Assembly: GCA_902825965.1 (NCBI GenBank)
Contig: CADEDA010000010.1
Span: 8,010 to 72,009 of the forward strand
Length of the DNA stretch: 64,000 nt
Origin: an uncultured Gemmatimonadota bacterium
GTDB taxonomy: Bacteria > Gemmatimonadota > Gemmatimonadetes > Gemmatimonadales > Gemmatimonadaceae
Direction of reading: 5' to 3'
Positions 16,581-27,109 of the stretch are shown piece after piece; positions within the stretch are counted from its first letter, which is position 1; the number at the start of each line of letters is the position of its first letter. The position numbers were made by a program, and so were the translations under genes. The notes beneath the pieces were generated by a model, which saw only the letters and a list, made by a program, of their open reading frames with translations, made no database searches and was not told the origin of the DNA.

Positions 16581-16581
<1 letters not shown>
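16144..16581 (-). CDS. Exported lipoprotein, Ig-like/YtkA-like
   Basis: The ATG at 16581 gives 145 aa with a lipoprotein signal (LLALLLMPLVVAATSC) and a short beta-sandwich: FDFRITADVMPPRAIERITYTIVV and VGTYRATLTFVTAGEWAMGIQF. The GTYRATLTFxxAGEW block is like YtkA/FixH-type periplasmic domains that bind copper or other small ligands, but no Cu-binding Met/His cluster is visible. It overlaps the inositol-phosphate synthase stop by one base. Confidence 0.72.
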
Positions 16582-17888
<1,307 letters not shown>

Positions 17889-17906
17889 TGCGGGAGAAGT
17901 CTCCGG

Positions 17907-18539
17907 TCAGGCCACAGAGCGCGCGTCGGCAGTCACGCGCGCGACATGGCGGATTCGTTGAACAAACGTGATGCGGGCCGTGGCAGCCAGTACGGTGATG
18001 ACGGTCGCCAGGATCCAGCCGTCGAGCGCGAGCCCGAGGAACGCCTGCGGCGAGGCGAGCAGTGCGATGCGTTCCGGGCGCTCCATCATGCCGACGCCCT
18101 TCATCTCGACGCCCAACCCCTCCGCCCGCGCCCGGGTGTACGAGGTGAGCATGGTCGCCAGCAGCGCGACGATGCTCACCACCACCATCGGTCCCGAATG
18201 GTGCGAGGGGTGAGTCGCGTAGAAGTATGTCAGGCCGCCGAAGAGCGCGCCGTCCGCGACGCGGTCGAGCGTCGAGTCGTAGAACGCGCCGAACACCGTC
18301 GACTTGCCGGTCCGTCTCGCGACGGTGCCGTCCACCACATCGAAGAAGGCGGTCAGGCCCAGTGTCCAGCCGGCGATGGAGATGTGGCCGTAGGCGAAGA
18401 TCAGCCCAGCGGCGCACGTGCACAGGGTCCCCGCCGTCGTGATGACGTTCGGGGACACGCGGTGCCGCACGAACCACTCCACAATGGGCTCGATCAGGGC
18501 GAGGTAGCCCACCTTGATCCAGCCCCAAAGCTTCACCAT
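17907..18539 (-). CDS. CDP-alcohol phosphatidyltransferase, probable phosphatidylinositol(-phosphate) synthase
   Basis: A 210-aa integral membrane enzyme with the complete family motif D67-x2-D70-G71-x2-A74-R75-x8-G84-x3-D88-x3-D92, whose four Asp bind two metals. Several hydrophobic helices follow. It transfers a phosphatidyl group from CDP-diacylglycerol to an alcohol. Because inositol-1-phosphate synthase is next in the operon, the acceptor is most likely inositol 1-phosphate, as in actinobacterial PIP synthase. Glycerol phosphate is the main alternative. It is first in the long minus-strand gene run. Confidence 0.88.
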   Translation of the reverse strand: MVKLWGWIKVGYLALIEPIVEWFVRHRVSPNVITTAGTLCTCAAGLIFAYGHISIAGWTLGLTAFFDVVDGTVARRTGKSTVFGAFYDSTLDRVADGALFGGLTYFYATHPSHHSGPMVVVSIVALLATMLTSYTRARAEGLGVEMKGVGMMERPERIALLASPQAFLGLALDGWILATVITVLAATARITFVQRIRHVARVTADARSVA

Positions 18540-18677: not shown

Positions 18678-19994
18678 TCAATAGAGCAGGTATGGCCTGA
18701 TCCGGCGCTGGAACGCGACGATCGACGGCTGGATGCGATCGATCACCTCGTCGGGGTCCTCGCCCCGCAGCAGCGCCTCGCGCAGCGCGGGGATCCCGAA
18801 CCGATCGTCGTACGTCCGCGCATTCAGCTTCATCGAGTCCGGGTGCTCGCGGCCCAGCGCCCAGAGGATCGCCGCCCCCAGCCGGCCGACCTGGACGCGG
18901 TCGCGGTCCTCGACGACGATGCGCACCATGGGGATCGCCTTCCCCGCGAACTTGCCGTCACCCGGCTTGTCGGGCGTCACGCGCACCGCATCGAACCGCA
19001 CCCCCGAGAGCCCGTACTCCTCCAGGCGCTTGGCGACCTTGCCGGCGTCCATCCACGGGGCCCCGAACTGCTGGAACGGGTTCGGCGTGCCCCGCCCCAC
19101 GGAGAGGTTGGAGCCTTCGAAGGCCACGAGCGCCGGATACGTCAGCGCGCTCGTCAGCGAGGTCATCGAGGGCGACGGCACCACCCAGGCGAGCCCGGTC
19201 TCGTCCCACCACATTGCGCGCCGGTACCCGCCCATCTGCACCACCGTCAGCTGCACCGGGATCCGCAGTTCGCCGGCGAACCAGCGCGCCATCTCCCCGT
19301 TCGTCATACCGTGCCTGAGCGGCGCGGGGTATAATGCGTAGGCCTTCCCGCGGCGCGACGGCGTCGGGTCCTCGGGATTGGCCAGCGTCGAATCGAGCAG
19401 CGGCCCCTCGGACCGCCCACCCAGCGGATTCGGTCGGTCGAGCACGATGAACGGGATGTTGTTGCGCGCCGCGGCGCGCATCGCGTACACCATCAACCCG
19501 ACGTACGTCCAGGTGCGTGTGCCGATATCCGCCAGGTCGAACACCAGTCCATCGAGATCCTTGAGCAACGAGTCCGGCGGCGGGATGGTCCCGTTGCGGT
19601 ACAGGGAGTGCACCATGAGCCCGGTCCGCGGGTCCACCATGTCCGGCAGGTTCTCGGTATCCTCGGTGCCGCGGATGCCGTGCTCGGGCGAGAACAGCCG
19701 CACCACGGTCACATTGTTGCGCTTCACCCGCGGGTCCTGCGTGAGCCGATCGACGACGGACACCCCCTCGACGTCGACGCCGGTGTGGTTGGTGATGACG
19801 CCGATCCGCCGCCCGGCGAGCACCTGCAGCGAGTCCTCGAGCAGCACGGTCATGCCCACGCGGAACGCCGGCCGCGACGGTGCGCCGCGCGCCGCCGGCG
19901 CCTGCTGCGCCTCGGGTGCCTTCGCGCAGGCGGCACTCGTCCACCCCACGAGCACGAGCGCCAGCATCACCGGCCAGGGTGCCCCTCGTCCCAC
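18678..19994 (-). CDS. namZ: Exo-beta-N-acetylmuramidase NamZ-like (DUF1343) lipoprotein
   Basis: A DUF1343 protein of about 430 aa. Conserved blocks are GVITNHTGVD, LFSPEHGIRG, VFDLADIGTRTWTY, DRPNPLGGRSEGPLLD and WWDETGLAWVVPSPSM. Family members release terminal MurNAc from peptidoglycan fragments. A signal ends at lipobox SAAC. I chose GTG at 19994, so the n-region has Arg and GGGA lies upstream; ATG at 19967 is the alternative. It is divergent from the NagZ-type gene across about 25-50 bp. The B. subtilis orthologue is clustered with nagZ and amiE, supporting a salvage role. Confidence 0.87.
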   Translation of the reverse strand: MGRGAPWPVMLALVLVGWTSAACAKAPEAQQAPAARGAPSRPAFRVGMTVLLEDSLQVLAGRRIGVITNHTGVDVEGVSVVDRLTQDPRVKRNNVTVVRLFSPEHGIRGTEDTENLPDMVDPRTGLMVHSLYRNGTIPPPDSLLKDLDGLVFDLADIGTRTWTYVGLMVYAMRAAARNNIPFIVLDRPNPLGGRSEGPLLDSTLANPEDPTPSRRGKAYALYPAPLRHGMTNGEMARWFAGELRIPVQLTVVQMGGYRRAMWWDETGLAWVVPSPSMTSLTSALTYPALVAFEGSNLSVGRGTPNPFQQFGAPWMDAGKVAKRLEEYGLSGVRFDAVRVTPDKPGDGKFAGKAIPMVRIVVEDRDRVQVGRLGAAILWALGREHPDSMKLNARTYDDRFGIPALREALLRGEDPDEVIDRIQPSIVAFQRRIRPYLLY

Positions 19995-20018
19995 CCGTCC
20001 CACGCCCACTTCGCGCTG

Positions 20019-22997
20019 ATGTCGCACTCGAACGTCCTCCGCATGGCCGGCCTCGCCGGCGTGATCACCACCCTGGGATGCGCCACCGCGCTCCCCACCC
20101 GCGCCCCGACGCCCGAACCCGGTGCCGGTCACGGCCTGCCGGCCGAGGTCTCCCTCACCGGTCCGCTGCCCGCGTCGGCTACGGCGTGGATCGACCGGAC
20201 GCTGGCCGGGCTCACGCTCCGCGACCGCGTGGCCCAGATGCACATGTTCTGGCTGCTCGGGGATTATACCAGCACCACGGACTCCACGTTCGCGATGGCC
20301 GTCGAACGCGTGGAACTCGACAAGGTCGGCGGCGTGATCATGTCGCTCGGCACCCCGATCGAGGTCGCCGCCAAGGTGAACGCCCTGCAGGCCCGCGCCC
20401 GCATCCCGCTGCTCGTCGGCTCGGACGTGGAGCCGGGACTCGGTCGCCTGGAGGGCGGCACCTTCAACCCGGGCCTGCTCCGCGGCGGTGACGCGACCGT
20501 GCTGCCGAGCAATATGGCGATCGGGGCGACGGGCAGCGACGCGATGGCGCGCGAGGCCGGCCGGATCACGGGACGCGAGTCCCGCGCGATCGGCATCCAC
20601 ATCGGATTCGCCCCGTCCGTCGACGTGAACAACAACCCGGCCAATCCCGTGATCAACGTGCGCTCGTTCGGCGCCGAGGCGAACGCCGTCTCGCGCCTGG
20701 GCGCAGCGTTCATCGAGGGCATGCAGGCCGAGGGCGTGGCGGCGACGATGAAGCACTTCCCCGGCCATGGCGACACCGACACCGACTCCCACCTGGCCAT
20801 GCCCATCGTCTCGGCGTCCCGTGCGCGGCTCGACACCCTCGAACTCAAGCCCTTCCGGGCGGCGGTGGCCGCCGGCGTGGCCGCGGTGATGAGCGCCCAC
20901 GTCGCGCTCCCCGCGGTGGTCGGCGACTCCACACCGGCCACGCTGGTCGCGTCCGTGCTCTCGGGACTGCTGCGGGACTCGCTGCAGTTCCAGGGCGTGA
21001 CGTTCACCGATGCCATGGACATGCGCGGGATCGGGGCGGGGTACACCACCGAGGTGAGTTCCATCGCGGCCGTGAAGGCCGGCGTGGACGTGCTGCTCAT
21101 GCCCGCCGACATCCCGGCGTCGATCGCCGCGGTGACCGCGGCCGTCGAGCGCGGCGAGATCAGCGAGGAACGCATCAACGCCTCGGTGCGCCGCCTCCTC
21201 GAGCTCAAGGTCCGCACCGGCGCGATCCAGCGCCCGATCGTCTCGCTCGATTCGCTGCGTGAGATCGTCGGGTCGGCGGCGCACCGGCGTGCCGCGGACC
21301 GGATCGCGGAGCACGCCATCACGCTGCTGCGCGACGATGACCGGCAGCTGCCGCTCTCCACCGGCGCGGGTGCCCCCCGCACCGCGATCATCACGTTCTC
21401 GGGGGAGACCGACGTCCAGGGTGGGCGGGTGTTCGCGAACGAACTGCGCAGCCTGCTGCCACAGAGTCGCGTGCTGCGCATCGGCCCCGGCACGCCGCGC
21501 GCGCGGCTCGACTCACTGCTCCGGCCCGGTGAGCGTGTGGTGCTCGCCACCTTCGTGCGCACCATCGAGGGCGAAGGGCGGTTCTCGGTCGGCGAACACG
21601 TGGCGCGCTGGGTGGACTCGATCGCGATGGAGCGGCGCACCACCGTGGTCGCCTTCTCCAATCCGTACGTGATCCGCGAGTTCGCCTGGGTGGGTTCGTA
21701 CGTGGCCACCTTCGGTCGCGGTGACGCGATGGAGCGGGCGGCCGCTCGCGCACTCGCCGGACGCATCCCGTTCCGCGGGCGGTCGCCGATCGCACTGCCC
21801 GGCTTCTTCGACGTGGGTGACGGGCAGGGCGCCGATCGGCCGGCCGATGGGCGGGCCGATGCGGCGGCCGCTGCGTCGGCCACGACACCGGCAACGACAC
21901 CGGCAACGACACCGGCACTCGCCGACACGCTGCAGGCGCTGCTGGACCGCGCCGTGCGTGACTCCGTCTTCCCGGGCGCGATCGCCGTGATCGGGAGCCG
22001 CGCCGGGATCGTCACGCGGATCACGGCGGGGCGGATCGATTGGGCGGCCGACGCCCCTGCCCCGGACCTGCAGACCATCTGGGACGTCGCGTCGCTCACC
22101 AAGGTGCTCGGCATGACGACCGCGATGATGCAGCTCGTCGAGCAGGGTCGGGTGAAGCTCGATGCGCCGGTCCAGCGCTACCTGCCCGAGTGGACGGGCA
22201 AGGACAAGGACCGCGTCACCGTGCGGCACCTCCTCACGCACTCCTCCGGGCTCGCCCCGTTCATCCAGCTCTGGAAGTTCACCACCGACGCGGACTCCGC
22301 GCGCCGCATCGTGCTCAACGCGCCGCTCGACACGGCGCCGGGCACCAAGATGGTCTACTCCGACCTCGGGGCCATCCTGCTCGGCATGATCGTCGAACGC
22401 GTCAGCGGCGAGTCGCTGGACCAGTACGTCACGCGGCACATCTTCACGCCGCTGGGCATGCAGGACACTCGGTATCGCCCGGGGGCGGACGTGCTCGCAC
22501 GTGTGGCACCGACCGAACGCGACCCGTGGCGCGGTCGTCACCTGCGGGGCGAGGTCCACGACGAGAACGCGTTCCTGCTCGGTGGCGTGTCGGCACACGC
22601 GGGTCTGTTCAGCACGGCCGCGGACCTCAGCCGGTTCGCCCAGGCCATGCTGGGTGGCGGCGCGCTCGGCGGCGTGCGCATCGTGCGCAGCGAGACCGTG
22701 CGCGACTTCACGCGCGTGCAGAATGCGCTGCTCTCGCACCGGGCCCTCGGCTGGGAAACGCCGAATGGCAGCAACTCGGCGGGACGGGTACTGCGGCGGC
22801 CGGCCTTCGGCCACACCGGATTCACGGGCACGAGCATCTGGATCGACCCCGCCAATGACCTGTTCATCATCCTGCTCAGCAACCGCGTGAACCCCTCACG
22901 CGAGAACTCGCGCATCGGTCCGGTCCGCACGACCCTCGCGGACCTCGCCGCCACGCAGGCGATGCAGGGCCGTAGCGCCGTCCGCGGAACGCCCTGA
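20019..22997 (+). CDS. NagZ-type glycoside hydrolase family 3 fused to a beta-lactamase-fold serine hydrolase, lipoprotein
   Basis: A 992-aa two-enzyme fusion. The start at 20019 gives a lipoprotein signal (lipobox TLGC). Residues 60-380 are a GH3 N-acetylglucosaminidase with KHFPGHGDTDTDSH (about 245-258), bearing the NagZ Asp/His loop, and the nucleophile Asp331 in TFTDAMDM. A GH3 C-terminal domain follows. A repeat-rich TTPA linker (about 622-633) leads to a class-C-like serine hydrolase with S692-x-x-K695 (SLTK), Y780-S-D and H932-T-G. In B. subtilis the corresponding NagZ and AmiE (a MurNAc-L-Ala amidase of this fold) are separate genes. Amidase is likely; esterase is possible. Confidence 0.9.
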   Translation: MSHSNVLRMAGLAGVITTLGCATALPTRAPTPEPGAGHGLPAEVSLTGPLPASATAWIDRTLAGLTLRDRVAQMHMFWLLGDYTSTTDSTFAMAVERVELDKVGGVIMSLGTPIEVAAKVNALQARARIPLLVGSDVEPGLGRLEGGTFNPGLLRGGDATVLPSNMAIGATGSDAMAREAGRITGRESRAIGIHIGFAPSVDVNNNPANPVINVRSFGAEANAVSRLGAAFIEGMQAEGVAATMKHFPGHGDTDTDSHLAMPIVSASRARLDTLELKPFRAAVAAGVAAVMSAHVALPAVVGDSTPATLVASVLSGLLRDSLQFQGVTFTDAMDMRGIGAGYTTEVSSIAAVKAGVDVLLMPADIPASIAAVTAAVERGEISEERINASVRRLLELKVRTGAIQRPIVSLDSLREIVGSAAHRRAADRIAEHAITLLRDDDRQLPLSTGAGAPRTAIITFSGETDVQGGRVFANELRSLLPQSRVLRIGPGTPRARLDSLLRPGERVVLATFVRTIEGEGRFSVGEHVARWVDSIAMERRTTVVAFSNPYVIREFAWVGSYVATFGRGDAMERAAARALAGRIPFRGRSPIALPGFFDVGDGQGADRPADGRADAAAAASATTPATTPATTPALADTLQALLDRAVRDSVFPGAIAVIGSRAGIVTRITAGRIDWAADAPAPDLQTIWDVASLTKVLGMTTAMMQLVEQGRVKLDAPVQRYLPEWTGKDKDRVTVRHLLTHSSGLAPFIQLWKFTTDADSARRIVLNAPLDTAPGTKMVYSDLGAILLGMIVERVSGESLDQYVTRHIFTPLGMQDTRYRPGADVLARVAPTERDPWRGRHLRGEVHDENAFLLGGVSAHAGLFSTAADLSRFAQAMLGGGALGGVRIVRSETVRDFTRVQNALLSHRALGWETPNGSNSAGRVLRRPAFGHTGFTGTSIWIDPANDLFIILLSNRVNPSRENSRIGPVRTTLADLAATQAMQGRSAVRGTP
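21882..21917 (+). repeat. Three perfect 12-bp tandem repeats in the interdomain linker
   Basis: The unit ACGACACCGGCA occurs three times in a row, encoding the TTPATTPATTPA linker between the GH3 and serine-hydrolase domains. Being a multiple of 3, copy changes keep the frame and only alter linker length. Confidence 0.9.
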
Positions 22998-23000
22998 CCG

Positions 23001-24113
23001 GTGCACACGTCGCCGGCGGGTCATGTCCGGCCGCTTACGTCCCTCCGGTTCATCGCGGCGATCTGGGTGCTGCTGCACCACGCCCTGCCGCGGGAGCGCG
23101 CCGGCCGCGTCGGTGCCGCGATCGGGGAGAGTGGCTGGCTGGGCGTCTCGCTGTTCTTCGTGCTCTCGGGGTTCCTGCTCACGCTGCGGTACGCACCCAC
23201 CGGAACGCTCCGGGGGAGCACCCGGCGCTTCTGGCTCGAGCGCGTCGCTCGCCTGGGGCCGACGTACCTCCTCGCCCTCGCGTTCGCCCTGCCGCTGTTC
23301 CTGCGTGACGCCCGCGTGCAGGACTGGGGCGCGACCCTGACGGCCGGGATGGCCGCGGCGGCCCTGACGTTGCAGCAGGCCTGGCGTCCCGAGACCGCCT
23401 GCGCCTGGAACTGCCCAGCCTGGTCGCTCTCCGTCGAGACCTGGTTCTACCTGCTGTTCCCGGTCGGTATCGCGCTGGGTGGCCGATGGTTGATGGCCTC
23501 GCGTGCCCGGGGCGCCCTCCTGCTCGCCAGCGCGTTGGGCGCGGCACTGGTCATCTTCCCTGCGCTCGAGGACGCGTCGGCGGGCTGGCTCCTGCCGATG
23601 TACTCGCTCTCGCCGCTGAGCCGCTGGCCCGAGTTCCTGGCCGGTGTGGGACTCGCCGGCATGACCTTGGCGTGGCGGCCCGCGCGCGCCGCGCCGGCCT
23701 GGGCGCTCACGGGCATGGGCGTGCTCTGGGTGACCTCCGCCGTGGCACAGCGTGCGGCGCTCGAGCGCTTGGGCGGGCACCTGCTGCCACTGGCCCTGCC
23801 GGGCTTCGTCCTCGTGCTCCTCGGCGCCTGGGGGTTGCGCGCGCACGGTGCCGGGCTGCTCGGCGCGCCGGCGCTGGTGCGCCTGGGGGACGCGAGCTAC
23901 GCCCTCTACCTGCTCCACGCCCCGCTGCATTCCTACTTCCTCGCGGCGGCCAACCGCACAGTCGGACGGGGCTTCGACACGAGTTGGGCGCTGTTCGCCG
24001 TGTACCTCCCGCTGGCGATCGGACTCTCCCTCCTGGTGTACCAGTGGGTGGAGGTCCCGGCACGGGCAGCCCTGCGCCGCCGGTTCGGGCTCGACACCGC
24101 TCGCAGTCCCTGA
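23001..24113 (+). CDS. Acyltransferase family 3 membrane protein
   Basis: A 370-aa multi-pass protein of the OafA/YrhL family. The N-terminal motif RPLTSLRFIAAIWVLLHHA contains the conserved R and HH-type pair, followed by FFVLSGFLLTLRY and RRFWLERVARLGPTY (the R-x10-H-region block). It transfers acyl groups to carbohydrates across the inner membrane. The GTG start is 3 nt after the preceding stop, so it is coupled to the GH3/serine-hydrolase gene. O-acetylation of peptidoglycan or LPS sugars is plausible; the acceptor is not visible. Confidence 0.86.
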   Translation: MHTSPAGHVRPLTSLRFIAAIWVLLHHALPRERAGRVGAAIGESGWLGVSLFFVLSGFLLTLRYAPTGTLRGSTRRFWLERVARLGPTYLLALAFALPLFLRDARVQDWGATLTAGMAAAALTLQQAWRPETACAWNCPAWSLSVETWFYLLFPVGIALGGRWLMASRARGALLLASALGAALVIFPALEDASAGWLLPMYSLSPLSRWPEFLAGVGLAGMTLAWRPARAAPAWALTGMGVLWVTSAVAQRAALERLGGHLLPLALPGFVLVLLGAWGLRAHGAGLLGAPALVRLGDASYALYLLHAPLHSYFLAAANRTVGRGFDTSWALFAVYLPLAIGLSLLVYQWVEVPARAALRRRFGLDTARSP

Positions 24114-24132
24114 CGGTCGGCCGGTGCTTGAC

Positions 24133-24161
24133 TTGGCCGGTGGAACCGCCGAGCCTATATT
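24133..24161 (+). promoter_or_regulatory. Promoter of the A-type Fe-S carrier gene
   Basis: TTGGCC (24133-24138), a 17-bp spacer and TATATT (24156-24161, 5/6 to consensus) precede the gene by about 57 bp. An overlapping TTGACT begins at 24128 but is 22 bp from the -10. TATATT also precedes sodA. Confidence 0.5.
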
Positions 24162-24218
24162 CAGATTGGTTCGGCAGCCGCGGCTCCGCGGCGCCAGTCT
24201 TCCCTCTGGAGGGATGCG

Positions 24219-24575
24219 ATGAGCACGATGAACGCCCCTGAGGTCGCGGTCACCATCACCTCGGCCGCCGCAGTCGAAGTGCAGAAGTTCATGGTCGCGG
24301 AGAACGTGACGCCCGAAGTCGGCGGGCTCCGTGTCTCGGTGCAGCCCGGCGGATGCTCGGGCTTCAAGTACAGCCTCCTCATCGAGGACAAGGCGGCCGA
24401 GGACGATACGATCCTCGCGCAGAACGGCTTCAACGTCTTCGTCGATCCGTTCTCGATGCAGTACCTCAACGGCGTCATCATCGACTATGTGACGTCGATG
24501 CAGGGCTCCGGCTTCACCTTCAAGAACCCGAACGCCACGGGCGGATGCGGGTGCGGCAGCAGCTTCTCCGCCTGA
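24219..24575 (+). CDS. erpA: A-type iron-sulfur cluster carrier (ErpA/IscA family)
   Basis: A 118-aa HesB/IscA protein with the three conserved Cys: C46 in QPGGCSGFKY and C110/C112 in the GGCGCGSSF tail. It accepts and transfers [Fe-S] clusters to apo-enzymes. A GGAGGG ribosome-binding site precedes the ATG, and the gene has its own promoter and a terminator, so it is monocistronic although it sits inside a peptidoglycan-salvage neighbourhood. ErpA versus IscA or SufA cannot be resolved from the sequence. Confidence 0.9.
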   Translation: MSTMNAPEVAVTITSAAAVEVQKFMVAENVTPEVGGLRVSVQPGGCSGFKYSLLIEDKAAEDDTILAQNGFNVFVDPFSMQYLNGVIIDYVTSMQGSGFTFKNPNATGGCGCGSSFSA

Positions 24576-24596
24576 GGTGACCGCAGGCTGACAGTC

Positions 24597-24630
24597 GACG
24601 GGCGTCCCACAAGGGCGCCCGTCCGCTTTT
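24597..24630 (+). terminator. Terminator after the A-type Fe-S carrier gene
   Basis: GACGGGCG (24597-24604) pairs with CGCCCGTC (24616-24623), with an inner CCC/GGG pair in the loop, followed by CGCTTTT. It is a conventional Rho-independent terminator 20 bp after the stop and just before the symporter gene. Confidence 0.7.
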
Positions 24631-24649
24631 CCCCCCCTTCCGACTCCCG

Positions 24650-26167
24650 ATGACCGCCGCGTTCACCGCCCTCGACTGGGCGATCCTGCTGCTCTATCTC
24701 ATCGGCACCACGGCGCTCGGCGTCTGGCTCGGCCGCGACCAGAAGGACGCGAAGGACTACTTCGTCGCCGGCGGCCGCATCCCGTGGTGGGCGGTGCTCT
24801 TCTCGATCGTCGCGACCGAGACCAGCGCCCTCACCTTCATCTCGATCCCCGGCCTCGCCTACCTCGGCGACTTCACGTTCCTCCAGGTCGCCCTCGGCTA
24901 CGTGATCGGCCGCTGCATCATCGCGTACACGTTGCTGCCCAAGTACGTCGAGGGGGAGCTGGTGACCGCGTACGCCCTGCTGGAGCGGCGCTTCGGCACC
25001 AGCACGCGGCGCTTCGCCTCGGTGACCTTCATGGTCACGCGGGCCTTCGGCGACTCGGTGCGCGTGTTCGCCACCGCGATCCCGATCGCGCTCATCCTCG
25101 GGCCCGTGCTGCCGGGCATGAACGTCACGCCCATCGCGATCCTGGCCCTCGGCGCGACGACGCTGCTCTACACCTACCACGGCGGCATGAAGGCGGTCGT
25201 CTGGACGGATGTCATCCAGACGTTCGTGTACCTCGGCGGCGGCATCGGGGCGTTGTACCTCATCGGGGCGGCGGTCGACGGCGGCTGGGGCGCGATCTTC
25301 GATCGCGCCGGCGAGGCGGGCAAGCTCAAGGTCCTCGACGCGTACGCGGGCATGGACCGGCCGCACACCATCTTCGCCGGCATCCTCGGCGGCACCTTCC
25401 TCTCCATGGCCTCCCACGGCGCCGACCAGATCATCGTGCAGCGCCTGCTCACGTCCGGGTCGCTCGCCGACGCCCGGCGTGCGCTCATCGGCAGCGGCTT
25501 CGCGGTGCTGCTCCAGTTCGCGCTCTTCCTGTTCATCGGGCTCGGCCTCTGGGCGTTCTACGACGCGCGCAGCTTCAGCGCGCCCGACCGCATCTTCCCG
25601 ACGTTCATCATCGAGGAGATGCCGCCGGGCATGACCGGTCTCGTGATCGCCGCGATCCTGGCGGCCGCCATGAGCACCATCTCCGGCGCCCTCAACTCGC
25701 TCTCGGCGGCGACCACGCACGACCTCTGGGTGCCGATGCGCGGCGGCAAGGCCTCGACCGAGGCGACCTTCAAGGCCTCGAAGGTCTTCACGCTGGTCTG
25801 GGCCGCCATCCTCATCGGCGGCGCCCTGCTCTACAAGGCGGAGGGCACTCCCGTGGTGGTGATCGCCCTGTCGATCGCCTCGTTCACGTACGGTGGCCTG
25901 CTCGGGGCGTTCTTCCTGGCGATGCTCTGGCCGCGCGCCATCCAGCGCGACGCGATCACCGGCATGGCCGTGGGCATCGGCACCATGTCCGTGATCGTGT
26001 TCGCCGGGCGCATCGCGGCGGCGCTGCCCGGGCTCGCCGGCGCCCTGTCGCCCGTGATCGGCATCGCGTGGCCGTGGTTCGTGCTCATCGGTACCACGAT
26101 CACCTTCGGTACGGGTATCTTGTCCTCACTCACCCATGCGGCGCCGAGCACGGCGCCGCGATCCTAA
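24650..26167 (+). CDS. Sodium:solute symporter (SSS family)
   Basis: A 505-aa inner-membrane transporter with about 13 hydrophobic segments. SSS features are FVAGGRIPWWAVLFSIVATETSALTFISIPG near the N-terminus and the helix-8 block LVIAAILAAAMSTISGALNSLSAATTHD, which includes the sodium-site Ser/Thr. The solute is not readable from sequence. The sugar kinase 18 bp downstream and the NamZ/NagZ genes upstream suggest an amino sugar such as MurNAc; SSS-type MurNAc transporters (MurT) are known in Tannerella. No Shine-Dalgarno motif is obvious. Confidence 0.87.
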   Translation: MTAAFTALDWAILLLYLIGTTALGVWLGRDQKDAKDYFVAGGRIPWWAVLFSIVATETSALTFISIPGLAYLGDFTFLQVALGYVIGRCIIAYTLLPKYVEGELVTAYALLERRFGTSTRRFASVTFMVTRAFGDSVRVFATAIPIALILGPVLPGMNVTPIAILALGATTLLYTYHGGMKAVVWTDVIQTFVYLGGGIGALYLIGAAVDGGWGAIFDRAGEAGKLKVLDAYAGMDRPHTIFAGILGGTFLSMASHGADQIIVQRLLTSGSLADARRALIGSGFAVLLQFALFLFIGLGLWAFYDARSFSAPDRIFPTFIIEEMPPGMTGLVIAAILAAAMSTISGALNSLSAATTHDLWVPMRGGKASTEATFKASKVFTLVWAAILIGGALLYKAEGTPVVVIALSIASFTYGGLLGAFFLAMLWPRAIQRDAITGMAVGIGTMSVIVFAGRIAAALPGLAGALSPVIGIAWPWFVLIGTTITFGTGILSSLTHAAPSTAPRS

Positions 26168-26185
26168 CGAGAGAATCCCAGGCAC

Positions 26186-27109
26186 ATGTCGCATCTGGTG
26201 GTGGGCGTCGATGGCGGTGGCAGCAAGACGCAAGTGATCGTGGCGGATGGGCGCGGCAAGGAACTCGCGACGCTCACCGGCAGCGGGAGTGCGGTCCGCC
26301 CCGGCGAGGCCCTGCACTCCGCCGAAGTGATCGGCGCGCTGGTGCGGGATGCCCTGGCGATGGCCGAGCAGGAGGACCGTCCGCGGATCCTCACCGTCGG
26401 CGTGGCCGGCGTGGGCCGCGAGAAGGAGCGCAAGAACCTGCTCCGCGCCCTCGAAGGCGAGGCGATCGCCGAGGAGATCCAGGTCGTGACCGACGCCGAG
26501 GTGGCGATGGAGGACGCGTTCGGGGATGGCCCGGGCATCCTCCTCATCTCCGGCACGGGTTCCGTGGCGTACGGCCGCGGACCGACCGGCACCATGCTGC
26601 GCTGCGGCGGTTGGGGCCCCAACTGCGGCGACGAGGGCAGTGGCGCCTGGATCGGCCGTCGCGCGCTGAGCGTGGTGACCGCGTCCCATGACGGCCGCGA
26701 ACCGGAGACGCGCCTGGTCGGCGCAGTGCTCACGGCGCTCGAGCTCGACGAGGTGGACGACCTGGTGGCGTGGTCGGCGACGGCCACGCCGAAGCAGCTC
26801 GCCGCGCTCGCCGTGCCGGTCCTCACGTTGGCCGCCGAGCGCGACCTTCGCGCCAACTCCATCTGCACGATCGCCGCGGAGGAGCTCGTGGGCCACGTAC
26901 GCACGCTCGCCCGGCAGCTGTTCGTGGACGAGCGCGCGGCGGTCCCCGTGGCGCTGGCCGGCGGCATGATGAAGCGCGGGTCCTTCCTGCGCCGCCTGGT
27001 GGAGCACCGGCTCAAGTCCGCCGTGCCCGGCGCGCACCTGCATGGCGAGGACGTGCTGCCGGCGCGCGGGGCGGTCAAGCTCGCGCGCCGGAGTCTCGCG
27101 ACGGTCTAG
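26186..27109 (+). CDS. BadF/BadG-family sugar kinase, probable MurNAc/GlcNAc kinase
   Basis: A 307-aa ASKHA-fold kinase. Phosphate-1 loop VGVDGGGSKTQVIVAD, the adenosine block ILLISGTGSVAYG, GWGPNCGDEGSGAWIGRRAL and the C-terminal VALAGGMMKRG match the N-acetylglucosamine/N-acetylmuramate kinase branch (human NAGK, clostridial MurK). It should phosphorylate an imported amino sugar at O6. The neighbours (symporter, NamZ, NagZ/AmiE fusion) favour MurNAc or GlcNAc. The stop shares CTAG with the convergent permease gene. Confidence 0.85.
   Translation: MSHLVVGVDGGGSKTQVIVADGRGKELATLTGSGSAVRPGEALHSAEVIGALVRDALAMAEQEDRPRILTVGVAGVGREKERKNLLRALEGEAIAEEIQVVTDAEVAMEDAFGDGPGILLISGTGSVAYGRGPTGTMLRCGGWGPNCGDEGSGAWIGRRALSVVTASHDGREPETRLVGAVLTALELDEVDDLVAWSATATPKQLAALAVPVLTLAAERDLRANSICTIAAEELVGHVRTLARQLFVDERAAVPVALAGGMMKRGSFLRRLVEHRLKSAVPGAHLHGEDVLPARGAVKLARRSLATV

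Follow-up and report, generated by a model that had tools for sequence, protein, structure and literature searches.

A locus encoding a NamZ-type muramidase, a NagZ/beta-lactamase-fold fusion, a sodium:solute symporter (SSS) and a BadF-type kinase raises the question of whether this bacterium salvages the amino sugars of peptidoglycan, and by which transporter, kinase and downstream enzymes. The locus was examined in a 64-kb stretch of DNA, referred to here as the window (C10:8010-72009 of a 4.07 Mb draft genome; 69.5% GC). We conclude that it is likely a locus for peptidoglycan amino-sugar salvage (recycling) by monosaccharide import, with substrates that we infer throughout.

Gene content of the locus

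The following features were identified (window coordinates):

18678-19967 (-), NamZ-type exo-beta-N-acetylmuramidase, probable lipoprotein (PF07075 7.8e-62 and PF20732 2.2e-36, full length)
20019-22997 (+), fusion of a NagZ-type GH3 glucosaminidase with a beta-lactamase-fold (AmiE/PBP4B-like) serine hydrolase, probable lipoprotein, 992 aa
20214-21203 (+), GH3 (NagZ) domain of the fusion (PF00933 at aa 66-395, 1.5e-79)
21936-22904 (+), beta-lactamase-fold serine hydrolase domain of the fusion (PF00144 at aa 640-962, 1.1e-67)
23001-24113 (+), Acyl_transf_3 membrane acyltransferase (family match; not conserved, probably not core)
24219-24572 (+), ErpA-type Fe-S insertion protein between the acyltransferase and SSS genes, probably an unrelated neighbour
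24650-26167 (+), SSS, candidate MurNAc and/or GlcNAc importer (PF00474; TIGR00813 222 bits)
26186-27109 (+), BadF/NagK-type kinase, candidate MurNAc/GlcNAc 6-kinase (PF01869, BcrAD_BadFG)

A first-pass annotation of this DNA described NamZ as divergent from the fusion, with the SSS and the BadF-type kinase following, and all of these family matches are confirmed. The NamZ gene has its start near 19967, leaving 51 bp to the divergent fusion gene; the longer ORF 18678-21314 was rejected as the NamZ gene, being an over-long artefact of open frames in DNA of this GC content. The gap between SSS and kinase is 18 bp, and a promoter scan of the pair returned weak consensus matches only. Strong family matches and the conservation of the SSS-kinase pair across three families of the order exclude an assembly of these genes by chance.

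Two genes within the locus are neighbours outside the salvage system: that of the ErpA-type protein, overlooked in the first-pass annotation, and that of the acyltransferase, which had been proposed to modify or de-mask sugars. The acyltransferase occurs in few of the 19 neighbourhoods from the order and is missing from most related loci, and was for that reason rejected as a core part. On the other side of the locus, genes for a myo-inositol-1-phosphate synthase and a phosphatidylinositol-phosphate synthase-like protein (16581-18539, minus strand) adjoin NamZ and are kept beside it across the order.

Extracytoplasmic enzymes

NamZ is full length, with both its N- and C-terminal domains over cut-off (208.7 and 126.4 bits versus 26.9 and 25), and has homologues in the PDB (4k05, 4jja). 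Its gene is the sole PF07075 match in the genome. Judged by its family, NamZ would release terminal MurNAc. In the PDB the GH3 domain is best matched by GH3 beta-N-acetylglucosaminidases, B. subtilis YbbD/NagZ among them, and its translation carries the NagZ-type His-Asp motif KHFPGHG....DSH, as KHFPGHGDTDTDSH. The serine hydrolase domain matches PF00144 at 229 bits, with SLTK as SxxK and HTG as HxG in translation. Its best NCBIfam match is the PBP4B model, to which it is related only, scoring under the curated cut-off (170 versus 385 bits). AmiE is itself a beta-lactamase-fold protein. NamZ, a NagZ-type GH3 domain and a beta-lactamase-fold domain stand side by side, the same three kinds of enzyme as in the B. 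subtilis region murQ-murR-murP-amiE-nagZ-ybbC, in which amiE-nagZ-ybbC comes after murQRP (PMC5061867); this speaks for the salvage reading.

Most GH3 relatives and many NamZ relatives have a hydrophobic N-terminal stretch with Cys at its end. This recurrence is consistent with NamZ and the fusion being probable lipoproteins, and supports the lipoprotein reading of the first-pass annotation.

The kinase and the symporter

By sequence, the best PDB match of the kinase is the MurNAc/GlcNAc kinase MurK of C. acetobutylicum (8zo3, 1.7e-30, about 30% identity). A 15-sequence kinase profile scored Clostridium MurK at 211 bits, S. tokodaii hexokinase at 144, a putative NagK at 140, human NAGK at 100, and Tannerella MurK and K1058 at 28-32. 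Clostridium MurK is therefore the best sequence match among solved BadF-family kinases, and takes the place of Tannerella MurK, which had been offered as the model for this enzyme. The nearest named relatives, 75-82% identical, are kinases from Gemmatimonadota/Gemmatimonadaceae metagenome genomes, which would place the host in Gemmatimonadaceae, probably in Gemmatimonas or close to it. The AlphaFold model of the kinase (pLDDT 91.9) superimposes on 8zo3 with a TM of 0.86, which makes MurK second by fold, level with S. tokodaii hexokinase; the equally good fold match to a hexokinase counts against the salvage reading.

The kinase and C. acetobutylicum MurK have the motif GGWG...GDEGSG in common. 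The segment reads RCGGWG...GDEGS in the kinase, and its RxGGWG form is common to Clostridium MurK and MurQ-linked kinases, with CGGWG in human NAGK, an enzyme for which MurNAc is about as good a substrate as GlcNAc (PMC9477735). The GGWG pocket motif was discarded as proof of MurNAc specificity: an uncharacterised NagK-type protein has it too, so the motif cannot separate MurNAc from GlcNAc kinases. Dual use of MurNAc and GlcNAc is more probable for the kinase than strict specificity.

A kinase for GlcNAc only is nevertheless conceivable, because NagK-type proteins have the same motif, and the sole NCBIfam match of the kinase is the GlcNAc kinase equivalog model (NagK, NF046058), for which it lies under the curated cut-off (100 versus 370 bits). 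The SSS-kinase pair would then handle GlcNAc freed by the GH3 domain from murein or chitin, MurNAc would go elsewhere, and MurQ would serve just the AnmK route for anhydro-MurNAc. The GH3 and beta-lactamase fusion RmNag3 of Rhodothermus marinus, which cleaves chitooligosaccharides (PMC6987092), fits such a role. We consider GlcNAc-only use unlikely: NamZ at the locus would make free MurNAc, and the closest characterised relative of the kinase takes MurNAc as well as GlcNAc.

The best solved relative of the SSS is the sialic-acid transporter SiaT (5nv9), with SGLT types further down, and no close relative with a known substrate was found. TfMurT of Tannerella has been assigned to the sodium symporter superfamily (PMC5790795), and NagX has been called distantly related to TfMurT (PMC9007349). 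If MurT were NagX/DUF5009-like, TfMurT would be unrelated to the SSS; DUF5009 was found in 0/41 genomes of the order.

MurQ, AnmK and downstream genes elsewhere in the genome

MurQ is missing from the window, as the first-pass annotation had stated. A genome search located it on another contig than the kinase (G000:C3:52064-52933; 357.7 bits, cut-off 302), where it adjoins AnmK; next after AnmK comes a second GH3 protein, which has no signal peptide. The MurQ-AnmK adjacency recurs in each of the 29 relatives fetched. In one example of the second GH3 beside MurQ-AnmK (L034:11091-12536, plus strand), the motif reads KHFPGLGRASVDPSL and lacks the NagZ catalytic His, possibly with altered activity.

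Across 41 genomes of the order, NamZ was found in 41, the kinase in 40 (one copy each), MurQ in 40 and AnmK in 38. Co-occurrence across these genomes was set aside as evidence, being uninformative where all parts are nearly universal. NagA was over cut-off in none of the 41, our own genome included. A fusion of NagB with a PIG-L domain (NF002557) is present in 25 of them, including our genome, where it lies away from the locus (G000:C6:13774-15615, L083); a second listed example is L036:11588-13576 (minus strand). The PIG-L half is a candidate for the deacetylation of GlcNAc-6P. Both NagA and the NagB-PIG-L fusion are missing from the other 16 genomes, which counts against the salvage reading. 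Single absences of this kind are weak because the genomes are drafts; the pattern over 41 is not.

The locus had been proposed to be a non-PTS one, and this is borne out by the lack of a PF02378-type PTS EIIC in the genome; one was found in 1/41 genomes of the order. PTS enzyme I is present in the genome and over cut-off in 38/41, so that the PTS of the order is probably a regulatory or otherwise different one. AmpG models had no match in the genome and a match in 4/41, just one of them over cut-off, to be set against the near-universal MurQ-AnmK of the order.

The match to no AmpG model, together with probable lipoproteins that could act on external murein, would also suit NamZ, GH3 and beta-lactamase proteins engaged in wall remodelling, or in predation on the walls of other bacteria, and not in recycling of the cell's own wall. 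This seems improbable: nearly every genome of the order has them, mostly in single copy, along with MurQ and AnmK, which looks like housekeeping recycling.

Conservation of the locus within the order and beyond

In 19/19 neighbourhoods from the order the SSS and kinase genes are adjacent, and NamZ or the fusion accompanies them in most; the gene order noted in the window is conserved. NamZ and the beta-lactamase domain were each found in 15 of the 19 and GH3 in 14, some contigs being cut. The gap 5' of SSS holds HesB/ErpA and NagB-PIG-L genes in many relatives, the latter ending just before SSS. A second, divergent SSS lies between the beta-lactamase gene and the SSS-kinase pair in many relatives (L050, L051-L053, L088, L090, L097, L107, L108), on the opposite strand in some, and might transport the other sugar.

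Synteny in the order extends over the whole region and takes in unrelated genes for inositol-phosphate synthase, PI-phosphate synthase and TonB/ExbB. Synteny inside the order was accordingly downgraded as proof of function, and local gene order within Gemmatimonadales is weak evidence, since unrelated neighbours are kept just as well.

Named genomes scanned with the kinase alignment yielded 80 loci, of which 32 were counted as Gemmatimonadota and 48 as others. Among the 48 non-Gemmatimonadota loci, 20 have MurQ no more than 1.5 kb from the kinase; these come from Bacillota, Poribacteria, Chloroflexota and Acidobacteriota. Examples are Tumebacillus (L122), with the order kinase-MurQ-GH3-AnmK-NamZ; a member of the Anaerolineae (L125), with NamZ-kinase-MurQ and an oligopeptide ABC transporter nearby; and a member of the Acidobacteria (L140), in which beta-lactamase, SSS, kinase, NagB and MurQ genes lie together within about 6.3 kb. 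A MurR-like RpiR regulator adjoins the kinase in Paenibacillus (L136). The transporter beside the kinase varies by phylum: BT1/MFS in Ignavibacteria and Bacteroidetes (L119, L156), and SSS in Gemmatimonadota and some Acidobacteria, with no transporter identified beside the kinase in the Acidobacteria loci L131, L129 and L139.

A murein-sugar substrate has its strongest evidence in this cross-phylum linkage to MurQ, and the repeated adjacency of related kinases to MurQ also argues against GlcNAc-only use. In the kinase tree the Gemmatimonadota kinases form one side, beside and not inside the MurQ-linked kinases, so that the murein-sugar assignment holds at family level only. MurQ is near the kinase in none of the 32 Gemmatimonadota loci and sits with AnmK instead; MurQ could thus serve AnmK only, which weighs against the salvage reading and favours GlcNAc-only use. 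One further locus (L114), from a MAG labelled Gammaproteobacteria, holds NamZ, two GH3 genes, beta-lactamase, SSS and a kinase of Gemmatimonadota type that groups with Gemmatimonadota in the tree, through gene transfer or mis-binning.

The cross-phylum links bear as well on whether the SSS-kinase pair handles glucose, sialic acid or another hexose, and stands beside NamZ/NagZ by inherited synteny only. The SiaT and SGLT kinship of the SSS, the equally good hexokinase fold match of the kinase and the synteny of the whole region all agree with such a pair. We regard it as very unlikely in view of the links of the kinase to MurQ, NagB, NamZ and GH3-beta-lactamase genes in other phyla, and of the NagB-PIG-L genes directly upstream of SSS-kinase in many relatives.

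Comparison with known salvage systems

In Tannerella forsythia, ampG-ybbC(namZ)-murT-murK-murQ occur in sequence (PMC5388701). Like the present genome, this diderm without a PTS has a NamZ-family gene, a non-PTS transporter, a kinase gene, there for MurNAc, and MurQ (PMC5388701, PMC5790795, PMC10465942). It differs in having MurQ inside the cluster and AmpG adjoining, and its MurK is a distant relative of the kinase described here; no AnmK ortholog is predicted in Tannerella (PMC7670621), whereas AnmK is present here. A single operon of the murTKQ type (transporter, kinase and MurQ) is not found in this genome, although MurQ is encoded in it. The first-pass annotation had presented the locus as combining the Bacillus and Tannerella schemes; any novelty in this falls away with ybbC (NamZ) directly upstream of murT-murK-murQ in Tannerella (PMC5388701). 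The two genomic checks suggested with that annotation, a search for murQ and one for conserved gene order, both came out in its favour. Its salvage interpretation survives as a non-PTS amino-sugar locus, shorn of the scheme's novelty, the acyltransferase role and Tannerella MurK as model.

B. subtilis shares the three extracytoplasmic enzyme kinds (amidase, NagZ and NamZ) and MurQ (PMC5061867). Its import is by the PTS transporter MurP, in place of the SSS and separate kinase found here, where the NagZ and serine-hydrolase domains are also fused and MurQ lies elsewhere in the genome. RmNag3 resembles the fusion in its GH3 glucosaminidase, C-terminal beta-lactamase domain and signal peptide, and acts on GlcNAc substrates; a peptidoglycan role for it has only been proposed (PMC6987092). 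The murQ operon of E. coli includes the PBP4B gene yfeW (PMC5061867). This murQ-murP-yfeW operon, with anmK, nagZ and ampG, recalls the present genome in MurQ, AnmK and PBP4B, the last as the best domain match. E. coli imports MurNAc by a PTS and disaccharides by AmpG, and has NagA, whereas the present genome gave no EIIC, no NagA and no match to an AmpG model.

The grouping of NamZ with a kinase and a non-PTS transporter is therefore already known. What differs here is a Clostridium-type kinase paired with an SSS, a fused NagZ-serine hydrolase, MurQ with AnmK, and no AmpG, EIIC or NagA matches. Every enzyme class is known; it is in the way they are put together that the locus departs from the textbook schemes of E. 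coli and Bacillus. A literature search of partial coverage found no description of the pathway in Gemmatimonadota.

Proposed pathway and its meaning

From the genes that are present we infer transport, activities and the order of steps as follows. The lipoproteins, by their families, would dismantle muropeptides outside the cytoplasmic membrane: the GH3 domain would free GlcNAc, NamZ would free terminal MurNAc, and the beta-lactamase-fold domain would probably remove the stem peptide (AmiE-like) or trim it. The SSS would then take up MurNAc and/or GlcNAc with Na+, and the kinase, being akin to Clostridium MurK in sequence and structure, would form MurNAc-6P and GlcNAc-6P. MurQ, encoded beside AnmK elsewhere in the genome, would convert MurNAc-6P to GlcNAc-6P. 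Finally, the NagB-PIG-L protein, whose gene is also present, would deacetylate and deaminate GlcNAc-6P to fructose-6P, replacing the absent NagA. Speculatively, the same SSS might also bring in anhydro-MurNAc, which would account for the presence of AnmK where no AmpG is recognised.

Extended to the phylum, the scheme is a tentative one: Gemmatimonadota may recycle their walls without AmpG, PTS or NagA, using lipoproteins, an SSS clade that imports MurNAc (perhaps also anhydro-MurNAc and GlcNAc), a Clostridium-type MurK with AnmK, and NagB-PIG-L as a NagA substitute. If true, a substrate would be assigned to this SSS clade, and the PIG-L half of the NagB fusion would answer the missing NagA. 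An entire phylum of diderms that abound in soil and water would then recycle its peptidoglycan by taking it fully apart outside the cytoplasm and importing the monosaccharides with sodium; such a layout has otherwise been described for Bacillus, where import is by a PTS.
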